NCBI GenBank assembly: GCA_003281045.1
Contig: QCDD01000003.1
Span: 1 to 64,000 of the forward strand
Origin: Pelagibacteraceae bacterium AG-349-L23
GTDB taxonomy: Bacteria > Pseudomonadota > Alphaproteobacteria > Pelagibacterales > Pelagibacteraceae
Length of the DNA stretch: 64,000 nucleotides
Direction: 5' to 3'
In this document: positions 1-14,061 of the stretch, in pieces
Layout: every line of letters starts with the position of its first letter
Position numbering within the stretch: position 1 is the stretch's first letter
The notes under the pieces: model-generated
The model's database searches: none
Seen by the model: only the letters and a program-made list of their open reading frames with translations
Told to the model about the DNA's origin: nothing
Made by a program: the position numbers and the translations under genes

Positions 1-1238
1 ATTGTATTATCTTTTTCATTTCGATTAATCACTTGATGGAAAATTGAATAATCATCTAAGTTATCTGTTAGTTGAACTAAATTCTCCCACAATGAGTTCG
101 TTTCAATTGCTTTTTGTAATTCCTCCTCTTTCATCAGTGGAGAAGTGACCACTCTTATAATTGCACTAGTAACCGGTATTGAGATCGCAACATTATTTAC
201 ATCTATTTTAGACTTTTGTAATGCTAAACCAAGTTCCGTTGTAACTTTTTCAGCATTTTCAAGAACACTACTTTCATCCGGAATTTCTATTGGATGAGAA
301 TAAAATTTATCTAACACCCATTGATTTGACTTGTTTGTATTTATTTGGGCAAGTCTTATCTCTTTATTAGTTAACTCAACGCCAATAACTTCTTCTCCTT
401 GAACAGAAGATTTACCAATTTTTGATTTAAAAAATTCTAATGCTTTGTTAAAAGGATTATTCCGTTTCTTTTCTGGTGATTTGGGAAGTTTAATTCCTTT
501 TAATGAAGGTTTTTTAAATTTTAAATTTTTTAATTTACCAAAAATATTTGAAACTTTACTTTTTGATTTTTCTTCAGTTGTTTCCTCAACTTTTTCCGCG
601 ACTTCATTGTTAATAGTAATATTGTTTTCAACTACACTTTCATCTTTAGGAAGAACAACTTTTTGCTCATCAGTTTTAGTATCTGAAGTTTCATCTTTAA
701 CAGCTGTGGTTTGAACAGGAATTATTTTTTCTTCGACGTTCGTATTCGTTTCTGGTTGATTTTGTAATGGAGTTGGGGTTTGTTCTGCAGCCTCAGCAAT
801 TTTTTTTAGTTTTTCACTTTCTGCTTGAACATCATCAAACCATTTTTCTAAAATCGGTATTGCCTCATCTAGGTTTGTTGTTCCTGAAGAGGAAATTTTT
901 TGTTTTCCATCAATATAAAGTCTTCCAACCCAATTTTTAGATTTAAGTTCACCTTTGTATTTGTCTTGTCTAACGTAAATATGAAGTCTTCCATCCTTTT
1001 TGTGAATAACTTGGTGAGTAGATCCCTCATTCTCATCCTTTTTTTCTTCAGACGCATCAGAGATATTGGTTTCGTTAGTATTTTGATTAATATTTTCATT
1101 TTCACTCTGAATTTTTTCATTATCTAGGTTTTGTACATCTTCAGGTTGATTTTTATCTTCAATTTTAGATTGATTTTCAGATCCAGATTGATTTGGATCA
1201 TCATTTAGAATTTTTTTATCTTCGTCTTGATCACTCAT
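1..1238 (-). CDS. pilM: Type IV pilus assembly protein PilM-like, with acidic/low-complexity and putative DNA-binding N-terminal extension (partial, runs off left edge)
   Basis: Manual minus-strand translation from ATG at 1238 is open to base 1 (MSDQDEDKKILNDDPNQSGSE...); C-terminal part IGVELTNKEIRLAQIN...NNVAISIPVTSAIIRVVTSPLMKEEELQKAIE resembles the PilM actin-like fold; neighbours are pilus genes. Absent from ORF track because no stop lies in the window. Confidence 0.75.
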   Translation of the reverse strand, partial: MSDQDEDKKILNDDPNQSGSENQSKIEDKNQPEDVQNLDNEKIQSENENINQNTNETNISDASEEKKDENEGSTHQVIHKKDGRLHIYVRQDKYKGELKSKNWVGRLYIDGKQKISSSGTTNLDEAIPILEKWFDDVQAESEKLKKIAEAAEQTPTPLQNQPETNTNVEEKIIPVQTTAVKDETSDTKTDEQKVVLPKDESVVENNITINNEVAEKVEETTEEKSKSKVSNIFGKLKNLKFKKPSLKGIKLPKSPEKKRNNPFNKALEFFKSKIGKSSVQGEEVIGVELTNKEIRLAQINTNKSNQWVLDKFYSHPIEIPDESSVLENAEKVTTELGLALQKSKIDVNNVAISIPVTSAIIRVVTSPLMKEEELQKAIETNSLWENLVQLTDNLDDYSIFHQVINRNEKDNT

Positions 1239-1257: not shown

Positions 1258-1580
1258 CTCTAACACAATTTACGAATCTCTAACACAAAAATCATATTTA
1301 GTCTAACACAAAATAAAATATTATATGTTCAAAATGAGCTTTTTATTAAAAAAGTAAGGAAAATCAATACTTTTTGACTTATCTTATTTTTTTTTAAAAT
1401 AAAGTAAAATATTTTAACTCTAACACAAATAAGAAAATTTTATTGTGTTAGAGTAATTTGGGATTGTGTTAGAGTTAAATTTTTTTTTTAAAATTTAAAA
1501 AAGTCAATAAAATCAACAATTTTAGTATTTTCGAAAATTTGTGTCAATTTGTGTTAGAGTTTTAAAACTTTGTGTTAGAG
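1258..1580. repeat. Array of eight ~11-bp motifs: CTCTAACACAA at 1258, 1278, 1301 (GTCTAACACAA) and 1418; TTGTGTTAGAG at 1443, 1464, 1549 and 1570; degenerate TTGTGTCAA at 1539
   Basis: Read directly from sequence; spacings 20, 23, 21, 21 bp within pairs; orientation flips around ~1435. Confidence 0.9.
1418..1453. other. Inverted repeat/hairpin CTCTAACACAA-N14-TTGTGTTAGAG at the centre of the motif array
   Basis: Perfect 11-bp arms read directly. Confidence 0.85.
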
Positions 1581-2084: not shown

Positions 2085-3368
2085 CTATAGTCCATCAACT
2101 ACAACAATAGTTAAATCATCTTTTTGTATTCGACCAGATTTAATAATATCTTCGACAATCTTGTTTAACCTTTCATAATTAGGAATAGGTTGGTATTTTT
2201 TAATATAATTTTTAAATCCATCTGACTCTAACATGTTTCCTTTTGTATCTTTTATTTCCGTAATACCATCAGTAAAAATATACATCGAACTATTTGAAAA
2301 ATTAATTTTTGTTTCTTTAAATTTAAACTTTGGAGCAATACCTAATGGTGGACCAGCTTCTTCAAAATTAGAAAAATTACCTTCATTGTCATATATTAAA
2401 GGTGGTTCATGTCCTGCATTAGCTAAAGTAAGTTCTTTTTTTTTGCTATCGTAAATTCCAATCAACATTGTTACAAACATTCCTCTTGATGTTGTTTCAC
2501 ATATTTCAGAATTTAAAATATTTAAAAGTTCTGCTGCAGAAAAATTTGTTTTGCTTAAGCATCTATAAAGACTTGATGCCTTTGACATAAGTAAAGAAGA
2601 TTTAATTCCTTTACCAGACACATCTGCAACACCAAAACCATAAACTCCTTCTGTAAGCTCTGCAAAATTATAAAAATCTCCTGAAACTACTTTAGCTGGA
2701 ATATTTATTCCTGCTATTGGAAATTTTTCTTTTTGGTTTTGAGATAGTAAAGTTTTTTGTATCTCACCAACAATTTCTATTTCTTTCTGCATTCTATTCT
2801 TATCAACAAGATCTTTTGCCATTCTTGCATTTCTAATTGCTAATGCAGCAGGTCCAGATAAAGTTTCCAAAAGTTTTCTATCATTCTCTTCAAACAATTT
2901 ATTATTTGTTTTTTTATTTAAACAATGAATAACTCCTATACACTCATCTGATACTATTAAAGGAGAACATAAAACAGAATACGTAGTAAAATTTGTTTTA
3001 TTATCCAAGTCAAAATAAAATTCAGCAATTTCTCTTACATCTTTTCTTACATCACCTACTCTTATACATTTTTTTAATACTACTGCTTTGCCCATTACAC
3101 CTTGAGTAATAGGAATTTCAAAATCTTCTAGATATGCTTGATGTTTAGATGCAATACATTGAAAAGACTGGTTCTTATCATCAATTAAAAAAATATTCGC
3201 AGCTTGTGCGTTTATTCTTTTAATAATTAATTCTAGAGAATTACTTAAAGTTTCTTTTAGATCTAACGACTTAGCTAGATCGTGATTCATTTTCGTAACT
3301 AATTCTAAATCTTTACTGGTAGTATCGTCTACTTTAGTTGTTTCCTTTTTTTTCGCGCCAAAAAACAT
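2085..3368 (-). CDS. GAF domain + SpoIIE/RsbU-type PP2C serine phosphatase (ORF extends to 3518; preferred start at MFFGAKKKE, 3368)
   Basis: GAF-like region NSLELIIKRINAQAANIFLIDD; PPM motifs FGVADVSGKGIKSSLLMS, LANAGHEPPLIY, YIFTDGITEIKD, DDLTIVVVDGL. Confidence 0.85.
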   Translation of the reverse strand: MFFGAKKKETTKVDDTTSKDLELVTKMNHDLAKSLDLKETLSNSLELIIKRINAQAANIFLIDDKNQSFQCIASKHQAYLEDFEIPITQGVMGKAVVLKKCIRVGDVRKDVREIAEFYFDLDNKTNFTTYSVLCSPLIVSDECIGVIHCLNKKTNNKLFEENDRKLLETLSGPAALAIRNARMAKDLVDKNRMQKEIEIVGEIQKTLLSQNQKEKFPIAGINIPAKVVSGDFYNFAELTEGVYGFGVADVSGKGIKSSLLMSKASSLYRCLSKTNFSAAELLNILNSEICETTSRGMFVTMLIGIYDSKKKELTLANAGHEPPLIYDNEGNFSNFEEAGPPLGIAPKFKFKETKINFSNSSMYIFTDGITEIKDTKGNMLESDGFKNYIKKYQPIPNYERLNKIVEDIIKSGRIQKDDLTIVVVDGL

Positions 3369-3533
3369 GTTATTTATAAATTGATATTCATTAATTTTTT
3401 GATAATTTTGATTATGATGGAAATCATGATTCATGCGCCAAATTTCTATTTGCACATAGCTGATGCGATGTTGTTTATACAATATTGCATCGATGGACTC
3501 ATAGAATTTTCCTCCCAAATTAAACTATAAATT

Positions 3534-4298
3534 GTGTCCTATATTATAGTATTTATCCTCGGAAGTATATGGGGCAGTTTTAGTAACGTATGTATTCACA
3601 GATTACCCGATAATAAGAGTGTTTCCAGAGGTAGATCATATTGCCCAAGCTGCAAAAAACAAATTAGATGGTATGACAACATTCCAATATTCTCGTATGT
3701 ATTCTTAAAAGCTAAATGTAGAGACTGCTCAGCCAAGATAAATGTTAAATATCTTTTGGTAGAACTTATCTGTGCATTGAGCTTTGTATGGTTTTTTTAT
3801 TTATTCGGCTTATCGCTTACAACCCTTCTTTTTTTTATCTTATCTATTTTCTTCATCATCATATTTTTCATTGATCTTAAACATTTTATAATTCCAAATG
3901 AGCTAACTTTTCCATTAATGGCAATAGGGTTGTTAAAAAGTTTCGATCCAAATTTAAATCAGTATCTATTTCCAAATTTTTTAAATTCACTAATAGGAGG
4001 TGTTGCTGGTTATATAATTATATGGATGATAATTTTTATTTATAAAAGATTAAGAAATAAAGAAGGTATGGGTTTGGGAGATGCTAAACTTTTGTCAGCT
4101 ATTGGTTTTTGGTTTGGGTGGATATCAATTCCTTTTATATTATTTTTTTCATCCTTTATCGCTTTAGTATTGGCAATACCAAGTTTGATAAATAAATCCA
4201 AAAATTTGTCATCTCAAATTCCTTTTGGACCTTATCTTATATTAGGATGTATATTATATTTATTATTACTTGAAAAAATTATTTTATATTTAAGTTAA
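3534..4298 (+). CDS. pilD: Prepilin peptidase / leader peptidase (GTG start)
   Basis: GSIWGSFSNVCIHRLP, CPSCKKQIRWYDNIPIFSY, CRDC, MGLGDAKLLSAIG (GxGD aspartyl protease motif). Confidence 0.93.
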   Translation: MSYIIVFILGSIWGSFSNVCIHRLPDNKSVSRGRSYCPSCKKQIRWYDNIPIFSYVFLKAKCRDCSAKINVKYLLVELICALSFVWFFYLFGLSLTTLLFFILSIFFIIIFFIDLKHFIIPNELTFPLMAIGLLKSFDPNLNQYLFPNFLNSLIGGVAGYIIIWMIIFIYKRLRNKEGMGLGDAKLLSAIGFWFGWISIPFILFFSSFIALVLAIPSLINKSKNLSSQIPFGPYLILGCILYLLLLEKIILYLS

Positions 4299-4329: not shown

Positions 4330-7300
4330 TTAAAAACCACTATCTCTCCATCCACCTTTGTTAGATAAAATTTCTCCTGGCACTGAGAAAACAGAGAATA
4401 AAGTACTTTCATCTTCAGAGGGACCAGCAACATTGGCAAAGAGTTTATCACCAAACACAACTAACTCAGACAGCACACCTTCACTTACATATGCGCAGGC
4501 GTTCAAACCAGGATTGTTTATATCCCCTGGGGTTGTAAGTTTTAATCTAGATGAACTATTCGTTCCACATTCATCATCGGCAGCACAAATGAATGAATGC
4601 CCTTGAGCACATGGAGCAGAGCCTGGTGGTGGCTGGTATATAGGATAATAAACTATTCCTTTAAATAAAGTTGGTGGTGCTGATGCTTTTCTGAAAGTTC
4701 TTGGGGATAAGAAAGCATTATTTTGATTTTTTTCTAAATGAATTACCCAAGCATCGGCTGTCTCTGGTATAGGACAATTATCACCACTTTGATCTCCAGA
4801 AACATTAATACAATTAAATGCGTTTCCAACGTTACTTGCTTTATCAGCTCCTTCATGTGCCAATTGTAAAAAATCAGGATTTATTTCCATTGGTTCGAGT
4901 CCAGGATTCATTACAATTTTTGGAACTTTTACTCCATTTAAATGTTTCCAATATGGAAAATGTTTATCTTGGACACCATATAAAATATTATCTAATTCAG
5001 AATCTTTTCCCCCTAAGTCAATAAAGTTTCCTGTTGAGCCAAATAACCAAAAAGATTTATCAGTTACTCCCAATCCAGCTTCCATTGAAAAAAACGAATA
5101 TCTTGAATTTTCTCTTGTAGCATTTAATCTAAAAAGAGTTGTTTGATCATATAATTCTGTTATACCAGACACTAATCTTCCATCGTCATTTAATCCTTTG
5201 GTATTATTGGTCAAATTTATTTTTGTTATTTTACCCTCAAGATCATTTACATAAACTAATGCACCTCTCCAAGGAACTCCTGGTGCAGTATCTGGAGTAA
5301 TTATCACTGGTGCAGCAGGTATAGCATTAGGAATGTTACTTCCATTATTTGTTTCAACCAATACATCCCCTGATAAAATACCATTAGGTGTTGTATCTAC
5401 TATATTTATTGGACCTCCATTAATTTCAGAACCATAAATTCTGCCAGGCATACCATCCATATGACCCTCTAAATCGATGACAAACAAAGCTGATCCAGCA
5501 CAAGCATCCCCTTTTGACATACCAGCGCCCATAATCGCAACATATCTATCTGTTCCAATATTTGATGAACCAGAACTTGATGGCATTCTAACAATTTTTG
5601 GAGTAGACCATGTCTCTCCCAGCCTAGAATAATCGTACGCTGGGTCTATACCTGACCCTCCAATGCACGCCCTAACACTTATATCATCTGATAACGTTGG
5701 CTCTTCGTCAGATGGATTAGCATTAAAAACTTGCTCATTTTTAAACTCAATTTTCAAAACAGCCCCTCCAGAACCATCATCAGACATTTGTGCACTTGAA
5801 ATACTAATAGGTTCAGGTACACCATTATTTAATTTCACTGCTCCTAAAACTGTTTGAGGAATTTCTGCACCAGTTGGATAATCTAAAACAAGATCGGGGA
5901 AATAAAAAGTTCTACCTTTATAACAAGAAGCTGTTCCATTGGTTCTAAAATCAGTTGCTGTACTACATGGCGCTATATCTGTAAGCGCATTAGCGTCATA
6001 ATCAGGGTCACTCGCAGGTAATTCTGTTTTTTCTCTAGCGTCATTATAATTATCTGTAGCCACCTCTCCCTCGGCAGAATTCATTAAATTCGATGAGGTA
6101 GAATTATATTCAATAGCAGATATTCTTCCAAGCACATCGGCAACTAGCACTCTATTGTTTATTTTATCATTAAATACTGAAACCATATGAATCGGGCCTC
6201 TATTTCCTGATGGGATCGGATCTGTTACATCAAGTAAAGAAAAACCTGCTCCACCTCTTCCATAAGGAACAAACAATAAAGTACGCCAACTTCTACTGCC
6301 TTCTAATTCTCCTCTAAAATTATATCCCCTAATAAATGCATCGTGTATTACAGGAGAGCCATCAACTCCAAAAATTGGGTTCGTTCCACCCCCAGAAGAT
6401 TTATCATATTCTGGATTTATTATTTGTGGAATTTTTGCTGCAACAAAAGGAGGTATAAAGCCCCATATCTCTTCACCACCTAGATACCCACTTCCTTCTT
6501 TAGCTGCAATTGCATGAAGTATTCCTGAGTTTGCCCCTGCATAAATTACATTTTGTCTTTTTGCTTGTTCCACTTTAAAGCGCGCATAACCTCTTGTTGA
6601 CCTATGATATGCCTCTTCATTAAAAGATTTAAAATCAATATTCATGTCTGGAGGTCCTACCTCTACAAGTTGCGAATGATATACGTCACCCATTACATGG
6701 TCTCTGACTTCACTAACAACACAATCGCCATCATAATCAAAATAATCATTACCTTTCATAAAATTAATCAAACCTATAATTTCATCACCCTCAGTGGCGT
6801 CACTACCAACATCAGAACAATTTGACGTACTAGTATGATAATCATCAACTTCATATCCCAATAAATTGAATAAATTTGTTATTGCTGTTGATTGATCTTG
6901 AGTAAAGTTATCCCAGTTTCCAAGATACGGAGCTCCTGGCATAGCGGTCCAAATATTTCTATTATCATCTGCACCACCTGGTGTTGATTGAAGTCTGATC
7001 ATTAATGATGAGTCCCAGTTCTTATGTGGATTTCCAGGTAAAGTATTATGCTCAACACAATCCTCATTAGTATCAGGACACTCAGCAGGGCTAATTAATT
7101 TTTTACGCAAAATTCTACCTTGCCACTCACCAAATTGTTCGTAACCAAATTGTGCTTGATATAAAGATCCACCTTCCTCGATTGTTGCTGTAATTGATGG
7201 TGCAGTGAACGCTAATTTATCAGCAATAATTTGCCGTATCTTAGCAGTTAAAACAGTTTTTAATCTTTCAGGTGTTCTGGCTACAATTGCTCTTTCACAA

Positions 7301-9180
7301 TCCTCATCATCAATACATTCTTGTGCAGTTGTTCCAGCTGCCAGTGTACTAGTGCCTATTCTTGAAAGTTCATGAAATCTATTTAAACTTGTACCATTAA
7401 TTCCACCTCCATAAGCCACATAAAGAGATTTTACCCCTTGTTCTCTTAATCGTGCCATTCTTTCAGCAGCGTAGCCATTTTGATTATCACCGAGCAGCCC
7501 AGTGTTCCTCATGGCCCCATCTCCAATTACAATTACATAATTAATCTGACAATCAGCATCAGGTTTTAAGATTTTTCCTCCAGCATTTTGGTCATTAAAA
7601 TAATCTTCAGCAATTTGAGAAAAAGCATTTGCATCCGTACCCCAGGCCATTCCTAAAGGAGCCATTACATCCATAATTTGATCAGATCCCCTTGGGCTTA
7701 CGGCTACATTTAAACACGAGTCTCGATTACATTGTATACTTGTCCCCTCTGGATGATCTCCATTCCAGCCTTGATAGTAAGTACAATCATTAGTTCTATG
7801 ACAATGACGCCCTCCCATAGCGGCAGTTCTTGAACGACCATGTTCACCAGCGTTCCAATGACCAAAGCCAAAATAAGCGCCCGTTGTCAATGTAGTGTCG
7901 TTAACAATTGCGTTAATTGCAGATTTTACTCCATCCCATCTTCTAATTCTTGGTCCCCCCATTTGTTGAACCCAAGTTGTATTTCGAGCAACAGCGGTGA
8001 ATTTATCTTCATGAAATTCATCTATGTAACCCCTAGCGGTTCCTGTTAACAACAGGTATCTATCATCAGCTGCATTATAACCTATGCCAAGAGCATGTGG
8101 TTGATTAAAACCCACATTTTCAGCATCGAAAGCATTTGCGGTTCCCTCATTAGACAGATTTGTTCTTGAACCTGAACCTACTGAGGTGATGATTGTACAA
8201 GAATTGGTCGTAGAGTTTGATATTTGAATTTTTTGTATTGCGTGAGAAAAAACAGAAGTAGTATAAACTATACTACTATCTGACGGTGAAACTTCCACAC
8301 CAAAAGGAATTGCTAATTCAGAAGTTAAATTTGGGGCATTTGATGCAGTACATTGTCTTTGTCGAGTTCCTAGAGTAAATGCATCACCGCTTTGAGTAAG
8401 AGCATATCCTTCAAGATTATTTTCTAATCTATTAGAAAAATAAACCATGGTACCCTCGTTATTAACACTGAGTCTTCCTGCCCATCGTACAACACCTCTT
8501 GTATCGGTTATATTTTGTTCATTACATACAAAAGTTTCAAGATTACATGACATAAAGAAACCAAAAGCTCTTCGACCACCGCCTGCTGCAAATAAGTAAG
8601 GAACACCTCCAATCTCCTTTATGTCAAAGCCGTTATAATTCATGCCACCAGGTGCTCTTAAGGCAATTAAACATCTTCTACCATCTTCTGAAAAGCCAAA
8701 TATATAACCTCTGGTATTTCTCTCCTGACTATGAAAAAAAATTACGCTCTCATCAAAGCTGACAGAGTCTAGGTCTTCTACAAACTCTACATGAGCGGCT
8801 TTTCTCTGTCTTTGAAGACGACGCCCGGTATGGTTGCCCATATCATTGAATTGTGTACATCCTACTCTTGGGATTGCCCTGATAGGTCTAAATGAATTAT
8901 CTCTTCTCCCATTAGCAGTGTACCTTATAATTGCACCTGCAGTTCGTCGTGAATATTGTGAAAATAAAATTCTATTTTCTGAGTCGTAAGCAACCCCTGC
9001 AACTGGGCCAATACCATCGCCTCCAATCCACTTTCCCATGCTGGCAGAACTATCAACTAAAAATAATATATTAGCAGCAACATCACCACCACCTGCACCA
9101 GGTGGTACAGGTTTTGCATTCACATTGCTACTAAATGATAACAAAAATAACAAAGATAAAATTTTTAAATGTTTCATCAT
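4330..9180 (-). CDS. pilY1: PilY1/PilC-like type IV pilus tip-associated protein with vWA-like N-terminus (1616 aa)
   Basis: Signal peptide; MIDAS-like DSSASMG; C-terminal beta-propeller with GDVYHSQLVEVGPP, YAGANSGILHAI, VADVLGRISAIEY. Confidence 0.88.
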   Translation of the reverse strand: MMKHLKILSLLFLLSFSSNVNAKPVPPGAGGGDVAANILFLVDSSASMGKWIGGDGIGPVAGVAYDSENRILFSQYSRRTAGAIIRYTANGRRDNSFRPIRAIPRVGCTQFNDMGNHTGRRLQRQRKAAHVEFVEDLDSVSFDESVIFFHSQERNTRGYIFGFSEDGRRCLIALRAPGGMNYNGFDIKEIGGVPYLFAAGGGRRAFGFFMSCNLETFVCNEQNITDTRGVVRWAGRLSVNNEGTMVYFSNRLENNLEGYALTQSGDAFTLGTRQRQCTASNAPNLTSELAIPFGVEVSPSDSSIVYTTSVFSHAIQKIQISNSTTNSCTIITSVGSGSRTNLSNEGTANAFDAENVGFNQPHALGIGYNAADDRYLLLTGTARGYIDEFHEDKFTAVARNTTWVQQMGGPRIRRWDGVKSAINAIVNDTTLTTGAYFGFGHWNAGEHGRSRTAAMGGRHCHRTNDCTYYQGWNGDHPEGTSIQCNRDSCLNVAVSPRGSDQIMDVMAPLGMAWGTDANAFSQIAEDYFNDQNAGGKILKPDADCQINYVIVIGDGAMRNTGLLGDNQNGYAAERMARLREQGVKSLYVAYGGGINGTSLNRFHELSRIGTSTLAAGTTAQECIDDEDCERAIVARTPERLKTVLTAKIRQIIADKLAFTAPSITATIEEGGSLYQAQFGYEQFGEWQGRILRKKLISPAECPDTNEDCVEHNTLPGNPHKNWDSSLMIRLQSTPGGADDNRNIWTAMPGAPYLGNWDNFTQDQSTAITNLFNLLGYEVDDYHTSTSNCSDVGSDATEGDEIIGLINFMKGNDYFDYDGDCVVSEVRDHVMGDVYHSQLVEVGPPDMNIDFKSFNEEAYHRSTRGYARFKVEQAKRQNVIYAGANSGILHAIAAKEGSGYLGGEEIWGFIPPFVAAKIPQIINPEYDKSSGGGTNPIFGVDGSPVIHDAFIRGYNFRGELEGSRSWRTLLFVPYGRGGAGFSLLDVTDPIPSGNRGPIHMVSVFNDKINNRVLVADVLGRISAIEYNSTSSNLMNSAEGEVATDNYNDAREKTELPASDPDYDANALTDIAPCSTATDFRTNGTASCYKGRTFYFPDLVLDYPTGAEIPQTVLGAVKLNNGVPEPISISSAQMSDDGSGGAVLKIEFKNEQVFNANPSDEEPTLSDDISVRACIGGSGIDPAYDYSRLGETWSTPKIVRMPSSSGSSNIGTDRYVAIMGAGMSKGDACAGSALFVIDLEGHMDGMPGRIYGSEINGGPINIVDTTPNGILSGDVLVETNNGSNIPNAIPAAPVIITPDTAPGVPWRGALVYVNDLEGKITKINLTNNTKGLNDDGRLVSGITELYDQTTLFRLNATRENSRYSFFSMEAGLGVTDKSFWLFGSTGNFIDLGGKDSELDNILYGVQDKHFPYWKHLNGVKVPKIVMNPGLEPMEINPDFLQLAHEGADKASNVGNAFNCINVSGDQSGDNCPIPETADAWVIHLEKNQNNAFLSPRTFRKASAPPTLFKGIVYYPIYQPPPGSAPCAQGHSFICAADDECGTNSSSRLKLTTPGDINNPGLNACAYVSEGVLSELVVFGDKLFANVAGPSEDESTLFSVFSVPGEILSNKGGWRDSGF

Positions 9181-9183
9181 TTT

Positions 9184-9699
9184 CTATCCCATGACCTCAA
9201 TTACTTCTTCACCTGTAGTATAATCCATCATTTGTGGATTAGTAATTTCAAGAATTTCAAAAATTTCATCTCTAATATTTATTTTGCTATACATTATTAC
9301 CAGATTACCTAAGCTTAAATCTTTGTAACCCACCCAATTTTCTTTCTCAGCTTCACTGCCAGGATCACTAATATTATTTTTCACAAAGTTATAGATTTCA
9401 TTTTTTATTTCACTATCTGTTGAAATTAAATTTATTCCCGCAACTTTAGAGTCGTAGATTATCACTTCTAAATCAGTATTTTCTAAATTTGAGTTTTCAC
9501 AATAATCTGCTGCATAGGCCTGGTATTTTGCAGAATGACCTTTTTCAAAAAGCTCAGATTTATATAGCATCAAAAATTCAAACGTATTTTGCGCATCTCG
9601 CACGGGTGTGCCTATATCAACTGACAATAAAGGGCAAGCAAAAGAAGAGCTTGAAAAAAATATCAAAAATAAAATTTTTAAAAAAAAATTTTTCACCAT
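9184..9699 (-). CDS. Hypothetical secreted protein in minor pilin operon (171 aa)
   Basis: Signal peptide FLKILFLIFFSSSSFACP; in line between pilX-like and pilY1-like ORFs. Confidence 0.65.
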   Translation of the reverse strand: MVKNFFLKILFLIFFSSSSFACPLLSVDIGTPVRDAQNTFEFLMLYKSELFEKGHSAKYQAYAADYCENSNLENTDLEVIIYDSKVAGINLISTDSEIKNEIYNFVKNNISDPGSEAEKENWVGYKDLSLGNLVIMYSKINIRDEIFEILEITNPQMMDYTTGEEVIEVMG

Positions 9700-9768
9700 A
9701 AAATTATAAATTTATATAAATATTTTTTCAACATTCTTACATGCTCATTTTAAGCTTTTAACTCATTA

Positions 9769-10467
9769 TTAATGGGATAGAACTATAAGTGTTTCAAGAG
9801 GAACAATTATTTCTGGATTGTTTGGGTCATTTATGTCACCCATCATGCCGCATCCATAAATTTTATAGGCTGTGCCTTTTCTTTGGGCCGTGCCTGATCC
9901 TTTTTTCAAACTTACACCAGTGCCTTTATATTCAGAGGTGCCAGAGCTAACTGAGAAAAATTCATAATAATATCTTCTAATACTTTCTTGTTCTCGATCG
10001 AGAGCATCTTGATCATCAATTGAGGAGTTAATTGCTAATCCGGCATTACCATCATTGAAAATCGGGAATAATAAATCTAAAAAACTTTGTTCTCTTACAT
10101 GTTCAACTGCTCTAAAACTATCATCATTTCTACTCAGGTTTCTAAAACTTCTGTAGCAAGGGGTCGATTGATCTAAAAGATTATCTTCAGTTAGTAGCTG
10201 GTTTTGTGGAAATATTCTTCCATCATAATCTCTATTTCCAGTGCCAACATTAATCGGACCCAGCATTTTATTGATTAAACTTTTTTGGGCTTGCAGTAAA
10301 GCAGTTTCAGCGACATAAAAAGTTTGCTGGTACTCATCACTACTATTATTACTTTGATGATCGGATGAAGCTATCACAATTAAAGCACCGCCCATTAAAG
10401 ACATGGCTAATAACAAAACTAAAGACAATACTAACGCGAACCCCTTTTGTTTATCATTTTTCATCAA
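9769..10467 (-). CDS. pilX: PilX-like minor pilin
   Basis: QKGFALVLSLVLLLAMSLMGGALIVIASSDHQ...YVAETALLQAQ typical PilX N-terminus lacking Glu5. Confidence 0.8.
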   Translation of the reverse strand: MMKNDKQKGFALVLSLVLLLAMSLMGGALIVIASSDHQSNNSSDEYQQTFYVAETALLQAQKSLINKMLGPINVGTGNRDYDGRIFPQNQLLTEDNLLDQSTPCYRSFRNLSRNDDSFRAVEHVREQSFLDLLFPIFNDGNAGLAINSSIDDQDALDREQESIRRYYYEFFSVSSGTSEYKGTGVSLKKGSGTAQRKGTAYKIYGCGMMGDINDPNNPEIIVPLETLIVLSH

Positions 10468-11648
10468 AAAGTTTCTCCAATATTTCTCGTATGAACTGTT
10501 ACAATAACTGAGTCTCTTAGCTTTTTATCTTTTCCATCGGCAATTAAACTATTTCTATCCGTACCACCTAATCCTAAAATTGTTCTAGGTTTATCTGTTG
10601 TGGCTGCGTCTCTATAAAAATCTTCTTTTGATACCCAGGTCAATCGTATATCCACGCCTCGAATATCTTGGAGCCTATCTCTAATTCCTACATGTTCTGG
10701 AGCTGGAAATCTGCCAGAAGAATCTTGTATTACCTTTCCATCTTTATCAAAAGGTATGAACTCCATATCGTCGATATAATTTCTTACCATCACTCCTGGG
10801 GTACATTCATTACAATTAGTAAGCCACAATCCTCTAGTAATCGAATTTACATCTGTGGAGTCATCACCAACTCCACTCCCAACTATACCACCGGCATTGG
10901 GATCTCTACCAAGACCAAATTGATTTTCTAAATTGAACAAATTTCCTGCTCCGAGAGGATCATTTCCACCATCATTTTGTTCAGGAGGTGGAGTTGCTTG
11001 TTCGAATAGGTCACATCCATTTCTTGGCTGAGAATAATGTTCTACTCTTTTATAAGCGGCAAAACCACCTGAGCCGTTTGGTAAAGCATAATAAGTTATT
11101 CTATATTTTTTATAAGGTTGTTCTCCATCACGGAAGTCATTTTGATTAAAATCTTCATATACAATTTGAATTTGATCACAGCAATTACTTCCTGTATCTA
11201 CCGTAGATCCAGTCACGTTAGTATTGTTGGTTGATAGTGAAGTAGTTGTGTCTGAGACAATTCCAAAACCTAAAGTATTTTTTCTAATTACTAATGCATT
11301 ATGGCTTTCGAGTGGGTTGTCAAATCCATTATCAAAATATAAGTAACTATTTTTTGGTAAAGCAATCCCCGAGCCATTATAACATTCTTGTGTTCTAGAT
11401 GCATATTGAGCTATTTCATGTGATCCAGCATAATATTTAAATCCTGCCATACGAACATCTCTCATTAACATTGTAACTATATCTCTGCTTGCTCTACTAA
11501 TTTTGGCTTTGTCACTTACTTGTGAGTATGATTGATTGACAACCGAATATGATGTGTAAACTGCAGCCATCATGATTGTAGTAATAACGATTCCAATCAT
11601 GATTTCGATTAAAGTTAATCCAGCTATATAATTTATACGATATTTCAT
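10464..11648 (-). CDS. pilW: PilW-like minor pilin
   Basis: Class III prepilin signal AGLTLIEIMIGIVITTIMMAAVYTSY; operon position; overlaps pilX. Confidence 0.82.
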   Translation of the reverse strand: MKYRINYIAGLTLIEIMIGIVITTIMMAAVYTSYSVVNQSYSQVSDKAKISRASRDIVTMLMRDVRMAGFKYYAGSHEIAQYASRTQECYNGSGIALPKNSYLYFDNGFDNPLESHNALVIRKNTLGFGIVSDTTTSLSTNNTNVTGSTVDTGSNCCDQIQIVYEDFNQNDFRDGEQPYKKYRITYYALPNGSGGFAAYKRVEHYSQPRNGCDLFEQATPPPEQNDGGNDPLGAGNLFNLENQFGLGRDPNAGGIVGSGVGDDSTDVNSITRGLWLTNCNECTPGVMVRNYIDDMEFIPFDKDGKVIQDSSGRFPAPEHVGIRDRLQDIRGVDIRLTWVSKEDFYRDAATTDKPRTILGLGGTDRNSLIADGKDKKLRDSVIVTVHTRNIGETF

Positions 11649-12274
11649 TGCTTTAACTCAAAATCACTTTGAAAATATAAAAATTTTCTTTTTTTTCCGT
11701 TATTCAAATTAAATTGTACTCTACCGATATACATGACCTCATCCATGACGTAAGGTTGATCTACACTACCATTATTATCAATATCAGTTTGTTGTGCATT
11801 GACTAATCCATCTACCTGACTCCATCTACTAATTACTTTAAAAACTCTGAAATTTCTTGTTTCATTACGGCCAGCACAATTTAAATAATCTTTATTATTT
11901 AGTAGGGCCTGCCACTTATTTGTTTTTATTTGAAAACTATTGTTAGCATTATTTGCATCTGAATAAATTTCACCATTATTATTGGTTCCTCCAGTATTGC
12001 TTTGACAAAAATCAGAATTGAATTCATTTTGAGATACTAAATTTGAAAAATTATCATTAGCAGAGGTATTATTTTCTGCTGAACCAATGACATCCTCTAC
12101 AATTACATTTGTTAAATAGTTTGCTTTGGTTCTTTCACCTGAAACAAAAATAGACTGAATTGAATAATTTGTCATTTGCAATATAGCAACGAAACCGATA
12201 CCAACGATTGCAGTTGATATCAAAGCCTCTAAAAGTGATAATCCAGATATTTTCTTATTTTTTTTTTTAATCAT
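11645..12274 (-). CDS. pilV: PilV-like minor pilin (ORF extends to 12367; preferred start ATG at 12274)
   Basis: MIKKKNKKISGLSLLEALISTAIVGIGFVAILQM; start overlaps the stop of the upstream FimT-like ORF. Confidence 0.8.
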   Translation of the reverse strand: MIKKKNKKISGLSLLEALISTAIVGIGFVAILQMTNYSIQSIFVSGERTKANYLTNVIVEDVIGSAENNTSANDNFSNLVSQNEFNSDFCQSNTGGTNNNGEIYSDANNANNSFQIKTNKWQALLNNKDYLNCAGRNETRNFRVFKVISRWSQVDGLVNAQQTDIDNNGSVDQPYVMDEVMYIGRVQFNLNNGKKRKFLYFQSDFELKQ

Positions 12275-13073
12275 ATTTATATTTTGGTGCACCATTATCA
12301 CATTGCCATATCTTGTCGCCAGAGCCATCCCTATCAAATTCATTGACATACCTACTCGTGACAACATTTCCGAATCTATTCCAATGAACTCTGCTCAATG
12401 CTACCTCATCGTCAAGTCTTGTAGGAGCATCTGGACAAAGATCTCCTTCAACTGCTGCAGGAAAACCTATTCCACAAATTGGTGTTATATTAGATCGCCT
12501 ACAAATATTTATAAAATTATAAGGAACACCTGTAGTAGGATCAAAAGCAAGAGCGTCGGATCCCTCATAAAATTTTCCGTTTTTTGCAAAACAAACTGCC
12601 GCTGCTCTTTCCCCAAAAAAATTTGTAGTCACATCCTTTAGTTCAATTGTATAAACAGCATTTTTTATTTCATTGCTTGTACTTAGATTGTCAGTATCCC
12701 AGTAATTATCATCACTACTAGAATTTCCTGCAGCCGTATCACATCTTTCACTGGGCGCAGTATTCCAGGCATCAGCGCCATCATTCATTTTAGTTACTAA
12801 ACTTGCCATAGTCATTCCACGTGATTCTATTATTAAAGTGTCCGCTGTATTTGAAAAAAGTACTTGCACATACGCAAAGGTGCCTCTCTCTGTTTGAACT
12901 ATAGCGTTTCTTACTAATGCCGCAACCTCTTTAACTGCAGCTCTGATTTTTCTTTCTTTATTCCATGAGGAAAAGTTTGGATAAGAAATAGCAGATATAA
13001 ATCCAACAATTGCAATGACCACAATTAATTCTAAGAGATTAAATCCTTTATTGTTCTTTACCTGCCCCAGCAT
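12267..13073 (-). CDS. fimT: FimT/GspH-like minor pilin
   Basis: NKGFNLLELIVVIAIVGFISAISYPNFSSW prepilin signal; 268 aa. Confidence 0.8.
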   Translation of the reverse strand: MLGQVKNNKGFNLLELIVVIAIVGFISAISYPNFSSWNKERKIRAAVKEVAALVRNAIVQTERGTFAYVQVLFSNTADTLIIESRGMTMASLVTKMNDGADAWNTAPSERCDTAAGNSSSDDNYWDTDNLSTSNEIKNAVYTIELKDVTTNFFGERAAAVCFAKNGKFYEGSDALAFDPTTGVPYNFINICRRSNITPICGIGFPAAVEGDLCPDAPTRLDDEVALSRVHWNRFGNVVTSRYVNEFDRDGSGDKIWQCDNGAPKYKYD

Positions 13074-14061
13074 CTATCTTTCCAGCTTTAACTAATTCTT
13101 CTAATGATTTTGCCATTGTAATCATTCCATCTTTTACTGCTGTTTGCATGATGCTTGGGATTTGATGAATTTTCGCTTCTCGGATTAAGTTTTGAATTGG
13201 GGCTGTACACTTCATCACCTCGAAAGCACCACAACGGCCTTGACCATCTTTAGTTTTAAGAAGTCTTTGAGTAACTACCATTTTTAAAGATGTCGAAATT
13301 TGAGCTCTGATCTGTGCCTGTTGCTCAGGCGGGAATACATCGATGATTCTATTAATTGTATTTGGTGCGCCACTAGTATGTAGTGTACCAAACACTAAGT
13401 GACCTGTTTCTGCTGCAGTTAATGCAAGAGAAACTGTTTCTAAATCTCTCATCTCTCCAACCAGAATAACATCAGGATCCTCTCGCAGTGCCGCTTTTAA
13501 AGCACTCGCAAAAGTTTGTGTTTGTTTTCCAACCTCTCGATGAGAAACAATGCTTTTTGCATCCTTGTGAATAAATTCAACTGGATCCTCTACAGTAATA
13601 ATATTTGCAGTCCGGGTCTTATTAATCTCATTCACAATTGCAGCAAGCGTAGTTGATTTTCCTGATCCTGTTGGTCCTGTAACTAACACAAGGCCTTTGT
13701 GCATATCAATGATGTCATAAAGAACTGGTGGTAAATCAAATTGTCCCATTTCTGGTATGACACTTTCAACTCTTCTGAGCACTGCTGCAGGTCCATTGAT
13801 AGTTTTGTAAAAATTTGCCCTAAATCTTAAACCACTAAGCGTAACTGACGAGTCAAGTTCATGAGTGTCGTTAAATCTTTTCATTTCTACTTCATTACAA
13901 TTGGTCGATATTAAATCTTGGAGATCCTGTGCTTTTACCATGACCTCTGGAACTTTGTGAATTTCTCCTGTTTGTCTAAATGCTAATGGCCAACCACTTC
14001 TAATGTGGAAATCTGATATTTTTTTATTATTTTTTGCTAATTCTTCTAATTTTTCAAACAT
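13048..14061 (-). CDS. pilT: Type IV pilus twitching/retraction ATPase PilT
   Basis: Walker A GPTGSGKST, ASALKAALREDPDVILVGEMRD, AAETGHLVFGTLHT. Confidence 0.95.
   Translation of the reverse strand: MFEKLEELAKNNKKISDFHIRSGWPLAFRQTGEIHKVPEVMVKAQDLQDLISTNCNEVEMKRFNDTHELDSSVTLSGLRFRANFYKTINGPAAVLRRVESVIPEMGQFDLPPVLYDIIDMHKGLVLVTGPTGSGKSTTLAAIVNEINKTRTANIITVEDPVEFIHKDAKSIVSHREVGKQTQTFASALKAALREDPDVILVGEMRDLETVSLALTAAETGHLVFGTLHTSGAPNTINRIIDVFPPEQQAQIRAQISTSLKMVVTQRLLKTKDGQGRCGAFEVMKCTAPIQNLIREAKIHQIPSIMQTAVKDGMITMAKSLEELVKAGKIDAGAGKEQ

Follow-up and report, generated by a model that had tools for sequence, protein, structure and literature searches.

Membrane-anchored one-component regulators of the ToxR/CadC type carry a cytoplasmic DNA-binding domain. 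The arm-binding (AB) domains of tyrosine recombinases consist of three strands and a helix (PMC8138268), and in the lambda system arm sites and IHF bends form a folded complex (PMC4880445). In the type IVa pilus (T4aP) machine, PilM forms a cytoplasmic ring (PMC7541494). Our literature search found no published pilus scaffold that includes a domain for site-specific DNA binding, and no published integrase AB domain domesticated with its sites into a non-recombinase.

The window, by which we mean the whole 64,000-nucleotide stretch analyzed here, comes from a Pelagibacteraceae genome of SAR11, the most abundant bacterial group in the surface ocean. Its first open reading frame, on the minus strand (1238..3), encodes 412 aa and is open at the contig start. 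Pfam returned a single match in this contig-edge ORF, PilM_2 at residues 286-381 (E 5.8e-5), while a full-length relative of 804 aa (L009) matched both PilM_2 (E 3.6e-18) and PilN (E 1.6e-8), so the window ORF represents the N-terminal half of a PilM-PilN fusion. The peptide quoted by the sequence-only reading is present in this ORF, which that reading had called PilM-like. The PilM_2 and PilN domains and the pilM-pilO-pilP-pilQ-pilB-pilC operon are shared with type IVa pili; in contrast to type IVa PilM and PilN, the proteins are fused here and bear in addition a tethered N-terminal domain, assigned below as an AB domain, with an acidic leader.

Comparison of 70 relatives revealed that this N-terminal module is the most conserved stretch of the whole protein, with a mean pairwise identity above that of the PilM core and of the PilN part (68%), and far above that of the linker and leader (Table 1). 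Across nine related full-length PilMs the module is near-invariant and the leader cannot be aligned, and since the module is preserved to this degree in both sets, it is not a chance resemblance. Its boundaries, which we set from conservation, show that the span given earlier, 822-1000, was nearly right. A full-length model of L009 shows disorder in both leader and linker and gives folds of modest confidence for the module, PilM and PilN. Pfam detected PilM_2 and PilN in the PilM proteins and no Phage_integrase catalytic domain. In one locus (L170) the module-PilM ORF is broken by a frameshift, possibly a sequencing error, leaving a 249-aa piece beside a mostly intact array.

Table 1. Features of the PilM protein and its upstream region in the window; identities are mean pairwise values over 70 relatives.
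Feature	Position	Strand	Residues	Remark
Leader, acidic, Asn/Gln-rich, disordered	1017..1238	-	1-74	17% identity; L009 model pLDDT ~25
N-terminal module, assigned as arm-binding domain of tyrosine-recombinase origin	831..1016	-	75-136	homology, AlphaFold, Arm-DNA-bind_3 profile; 95% identity
Linker between module and PilM core, disordered	399..830	-	137-280	31% identity; L009 model pLDDT ~25-35
PilM actin-like core, cut by contig start	3..398	-	281 onward	Pfam PilM_2; 80% identity; in relatives PilN follows in the same protein
Putative arm-type site TTGTGTTAGAG, gene-proximal group	1258..1268	-		layout kept in database loci
Putative arm-type site TTGTGTTAGAG, gene-proximal group	1278..1288	-		layout kept in database loci
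Putative arm-type site TTGTGTTAGAC, gene-proximal group	1301..1311	-		C variant here conserved in many relatives
Candidate pilMN promoter TTAATA-18-TATAAT, tentative	1320..1349	-		directly upstream of the 1301-1311 site; 10/12 consensus matches
Weaker second copy of the TGTTGATTTTATTGACTTTTTT element	1348..1369	-		long spacer
Putative arm-type site TTGTGTTAGAG, middle group	1418..1428	-		
Putative arm-type site TTGTGTTAGAG, middle group, inverted	1443..1453	+		25 bp from site 1418..1428
Putative arm-type site TTGTGTTAGAG, middle group	1464..1474	+		21-bp step
Conserved non-array element TGTTGATTTTATTGACTTTTTT, IHF-like, tentative	1497..1518	-		85-bp spacer
Putative arm-type site TTGTGTTAGAG, distal pair	1549..1559	+		
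Putative arm-type site TTGTGTTAGAG, distal pair	1570..1580	+		21-bp step

The sequence-only reading had likened the module to an integrase arm-binding or AP2-type domain. AlphaFold, given a 12-sequence alignment, folded the module as beta-beta-beta-alpha (pLDDT 84.7, pTM 0.68), with strands at 5-7, 12-16, 30-36 and 39-44 and a helix at 50-72. This model, neither disordered nor of an unrelated fold, has the three-stranded sheet and C-terminal helix that characterize an arm-binding domain, as in Int-Tn916, IntSXT (DUF4102, that is Arm-DNA-bind_3) and the N-domain of lambda Int, all of clan CL0081. A profile of the module matched 56 of 298 Pelagibacterales genomes, from which four with spurious weak matches and one with only an integrase (G243) were dropped; the survey of SAR11 PilM architectures thus placed the module in PilM of 51 genomes, roughly half of all searched Pelagibacterales genomes with a PilM. 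The sole strong matches outside PilM in these 298 genomes were the N-termini of two tyrosine integrases (E ~1e-25), which are 54-58% identical to the window module, and a reverse search with an integrase query returned the PilM modules (E 1e-17 to 1e-21). Beyond SAR11, a search of 241 Alphaproteobacteria gave four matches with E <0.01 (L245-L248), all at the N-termini of tyrosine recombinases; values of about 1e-4 to 1e-2 are weak alone, as histidine kinases and a CoA-transferase reached ~1e-3 in the Pelagibacterales module profile search. On inspection, the weak matches L060-L064 (histidine kinases, a CoA-transferase and stop-containing frames) and L249/L250 (PurF-like) were rejected as chance.

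Profile comparison led to the same family by way of these integrases. When they were included as intermediates, hhalign aligned the module with Arm-DNA-bind_3, represented by a 20-sequence alignment, at a probability of 84.8% (E 6.5e-6), and reversed and unrelated controls reached at most 0.6%; without the intermediates the match was weak (0.65%). The module alone gave no match to an arm-binding family in a Pfam scan up to E 10; the AP2 resemblance, for which the same scan gave no match, gained no separate support. A Foldseek search of the PDB, of limited power for so small a model, had a best E of 0.77, with no arm-binding domain among the 50 matches listed, and sequence scans with just the module against PHROGs and the PDB yielded nothing decisive (weak matches to PHROGs 17986 and 36698, with no assigned function). 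From the integrase homologs, the fold and the profile match, we conclude that the module is almost certainly an arm-binding domain of tyrosine-recombinase origin that was domesticated in PilM. As in AB-domain recombinases, the integrase homologs have it at the N-terminus, ahead of the core-binding and catalytic domains, and, as in AB systems, short direct and inverted sites of 10-11 bp lie nearby, alongside the Arm-DNA-bind_3 profile match (PMC8138268). Unlike AB recombinases, the module is fused to PilM-PilN, with neither a core-binding nor a catalytic domain, and unlike known AB domains it is compact (~62 residues), carries an additional loop (QDKYKGELK) ahead of the second main strand and has no direct Pfam or PDB match.

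The two SAR11 integrases (L058 on G107:C3 and L059 on G243:C1) are Phage_integrase proteins of 418-423 aa with the module at the N-terminus. Both have TTGTGTAAGAG repeats, one base off the PilM site, beside int at a tRNA-Leu insertion, and are a third, independent context pairing the module with the site. The mobile element at the tRNA-Leu gene comprises the tyrosine integrase, a complete tRNA-Leu(caa) next to int and the TTGTGTAAGAG repeats; a Resolvase-type serine recombinase is also found in it (L058:2111-2821). No match to the integrase or module was detected in viral contigs and named phages, and the DNA examined next to the integrases L245-L248 had no obvious 11-mer repeats.

Just upstream of pilMN, the window contains eight TTGTGTTAGA(G/C) sites spread over 1258-1580. 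The 10-mer TTGTGTTAGA occurs eight times in the 912-kb genome, every copy at 1259-1579, and a reversed control pattern occurs three times genome-wide; seven exact 11-mers all fall within the array. No clear excess of sites away from the array was detected in eight genomes, and any action of the sites is therefore expected to be local. Where upstream DNA is present in the 80 database loci, the layout recurs: distal sites point one way and proximal sites the other, the steps measure 20-23 bp, the inverted pair is set 25 bp apart, and the spacers span 85-87 and ~116-128 bp. Positions 1-10 of the sites are near-invariant, although sites were chosen at no more than one mismatch, which somewhat flatters the near-100% positions; the spacers vary in sequence and are near-fixed in length. 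Like lambda-type attP arms, the array combines sites of about 10 bp in both orientations with spacers bearing tentative IHF-like elements (PMC4880445), but unlike attP it has no adjoining recombinase gene and sits at the presumed promoter region. Three loci (L073, L146 and L168) have extended or looser arrays unlike the canonical eight-site layout, with extra sites farther upstream (to ~870 bp in L073). We also observed that contig ends are strongly enriched upstream of the module: of the 80 loci (L093-L172), 22 end within 800 bp and three in the next 3.2 kb, probably because the repeats and the low-complexity leader hamper assembly or amplification.

The array and the module occur together. 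Strict site pairs were found in 49 of the 298 Pelagibacterales genomes, all among the 51 with module-PilM and always beside the module-PilM gene; the other two have one-mismatch sites (G201) or a contig that starts inside the module (G254). Forty genomes have a PilM in which no module was found, of which G093 and G095 were set aside because their contigs are short and cut or broken. The array was absent from the remaining module-less PilM genomes (0/38), and none was found among the 298 in genomes outside the PilM-bearing sets. The association is strong by Fisher's exact test (p 4e-23), a statistic that ignores kinship: on the PilM tree the module and short forms require two changes, so the module and array share about two evolutionary changes, the genome counts are not independent, and the pattern amounts to one loss or one extra gain common to both traits rather than dozens of events. 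In the short-PilM clade both array and module are absent. Judging from this co-occurrence and from the near-identical sites of the integrases, the array sites are very probably those recognized by the module, as had been proposed when the adjacent repeats were first likened to arm-type sites.

An alignment of 56 upstream regions showed the IHF-like TGTTGATTTTA element to be the sole well-conserved spacer motif. It resembles the IHF consensus WATCAR in part only, and the genome has three HU/IHF-family genes. Promoter prediction yielded candidate sites no more numerous than in shuffles.

These observations are best accommodated, with somewhat better than even confidence, by a model in which the type IV pilus operon acquired an AB domain along with its arm-type sites, both now serving feedback on machine assembly. 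The AB domain would be that of a tyrosine recombinase, and the joint acquisition would have taken place in Pelagibacteraceae. In PilM-PilN a long disordered linker would connect the AB domain to the rest of the protein, and known PilM/PilN topology suggests that the domain lies at the inner membrane, facing the cytoplasm. It may bind the array, whose eight TTGTGTTAGA(G) sites are phased, in part inverted and spread over the presumed pilMN promoter region; this would probably form a bent multi-protein complex assisted by an IHF-like protein. By occupying the array, PilM, whether free or built into the ring, would set the transcription level of the pilMNOPQBC operon, and the divergent pilT operon of some genomes might be controlled likewise; in L175 the array lies between divergent pilT and pilMN. 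In this scheme we infer the promoter position, the sign of the regulation and the DNA binding. PilM would then resemble the ToxR/CadC type in being held at the membrane while its cytoplasmic DNA-binding domain acts on the protein's own locus, but unlike those regulators it would have an integrase AB domain as output and a structural part of the pilus apparatus as its body. Because the array lies directly upstream of pilMN and local action is expected, we favor feedback, with locus tethering as the main rival, and we lean, with little more than even confidence, towards regulation as the main role. Against it, eight sites over ~320 bp exceed the usual need of simple autoregulation, and the candidate promoters do not exceed shuffles.

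Tethering would reverse the emphasis: a multivalent PilM ring at the pilus base would hold the array and anchor one chromosomal locus. This might position the locus, co-localize its expression or restrict each chromosome to a single machine, and regulation would come second. As PilM is a ring in the T4aP machine (PMC7541494), one machine could present many AB domains, and the disordered linkers would give them reach towards some eight sites gathered in one place, with no clear excess elsewhere and with conserved layout and orientation. However, the array is always in the pilMN upstream region, which suits regulation at least equally, and dnaA, which may not mark the origin, lies far from the array where both are on one contig (~96 kb in G191, 231 kb in G069 and 325 kb in G066). 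We therefore regard tethering as rather unlikely, and grade in the same way its fuller form, in which the SAR11 pilus base would be a chromosome-anchoring device whose PilM ring captures the single array through a domesticated intasome-like complex. If true, chromosome anchoring would couple machine assembly or number to gene position. A reading of the array as a replication origin or centromere found no support, given the distance of dnaA (~96-325 kb).

It is improbable that the module and array are a leftover of an element, part of whose integrase became joined to pilM together with its attachment site; in this reading neither now has a DNA-related role, and the module is kept for another reason such as protein contact or stability. 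The integrase homologs of the domain in the same family and the arm-like layout, which recalls an attachment region, are what such an origin would leave, but the site sequences and spacings are conserved where spacer sequence is not, the module outdoes the PilM core in conservation, and the short-PilM clade has neither array nor module. Least probable of all is that the array is read by a different regulator or is a DNA-uptake tag, the PilM module not being its reader: the partner-switching genes of the locus (one for a GAF-SpoIIE phosphatase, joined in a relative by HATPase and STAS genes) do suggest another regulatory layer, but the near-perfect co-occurrence of array and module and the near-identical site beside the homologous integrases' own gene argue against it. 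Uptake tags are dispersed, and we rejected this variant because the sites are clustered once per genome. Pili generally serve adhesion and DNA uptake, and those of SAR11 are uncharacterized (PMC12636525).

Returning to the feedback model, the pilus machine of many SAR11 bacteria can apparently hold on to one specific spot of the chromosome, most simply to control its own genes. The 62 residues and the 10-11 bp site form a sharply defined candidate protein-DNA pair, and raise the question of how a reduced genome couples pilus assembly with gene control.

Other genes of the pilus locus were also inspected. A GAF-SpoIIE phosphatase is encoded at 2085-3518 of the window, and a relative has HATPase and STAS proteins (L173:17125-18143) that make up with it a partner-switching set among the pilus genes. 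The minus strand at 4330-14061 encodes a PilY1-like protein (1616 aa, no Pfam match), minor-pilin-like ORFs and a pilT-like gene, which together with a prepilin peptidase at 3534-4298 (+) are much of a type IV pilus cluster.
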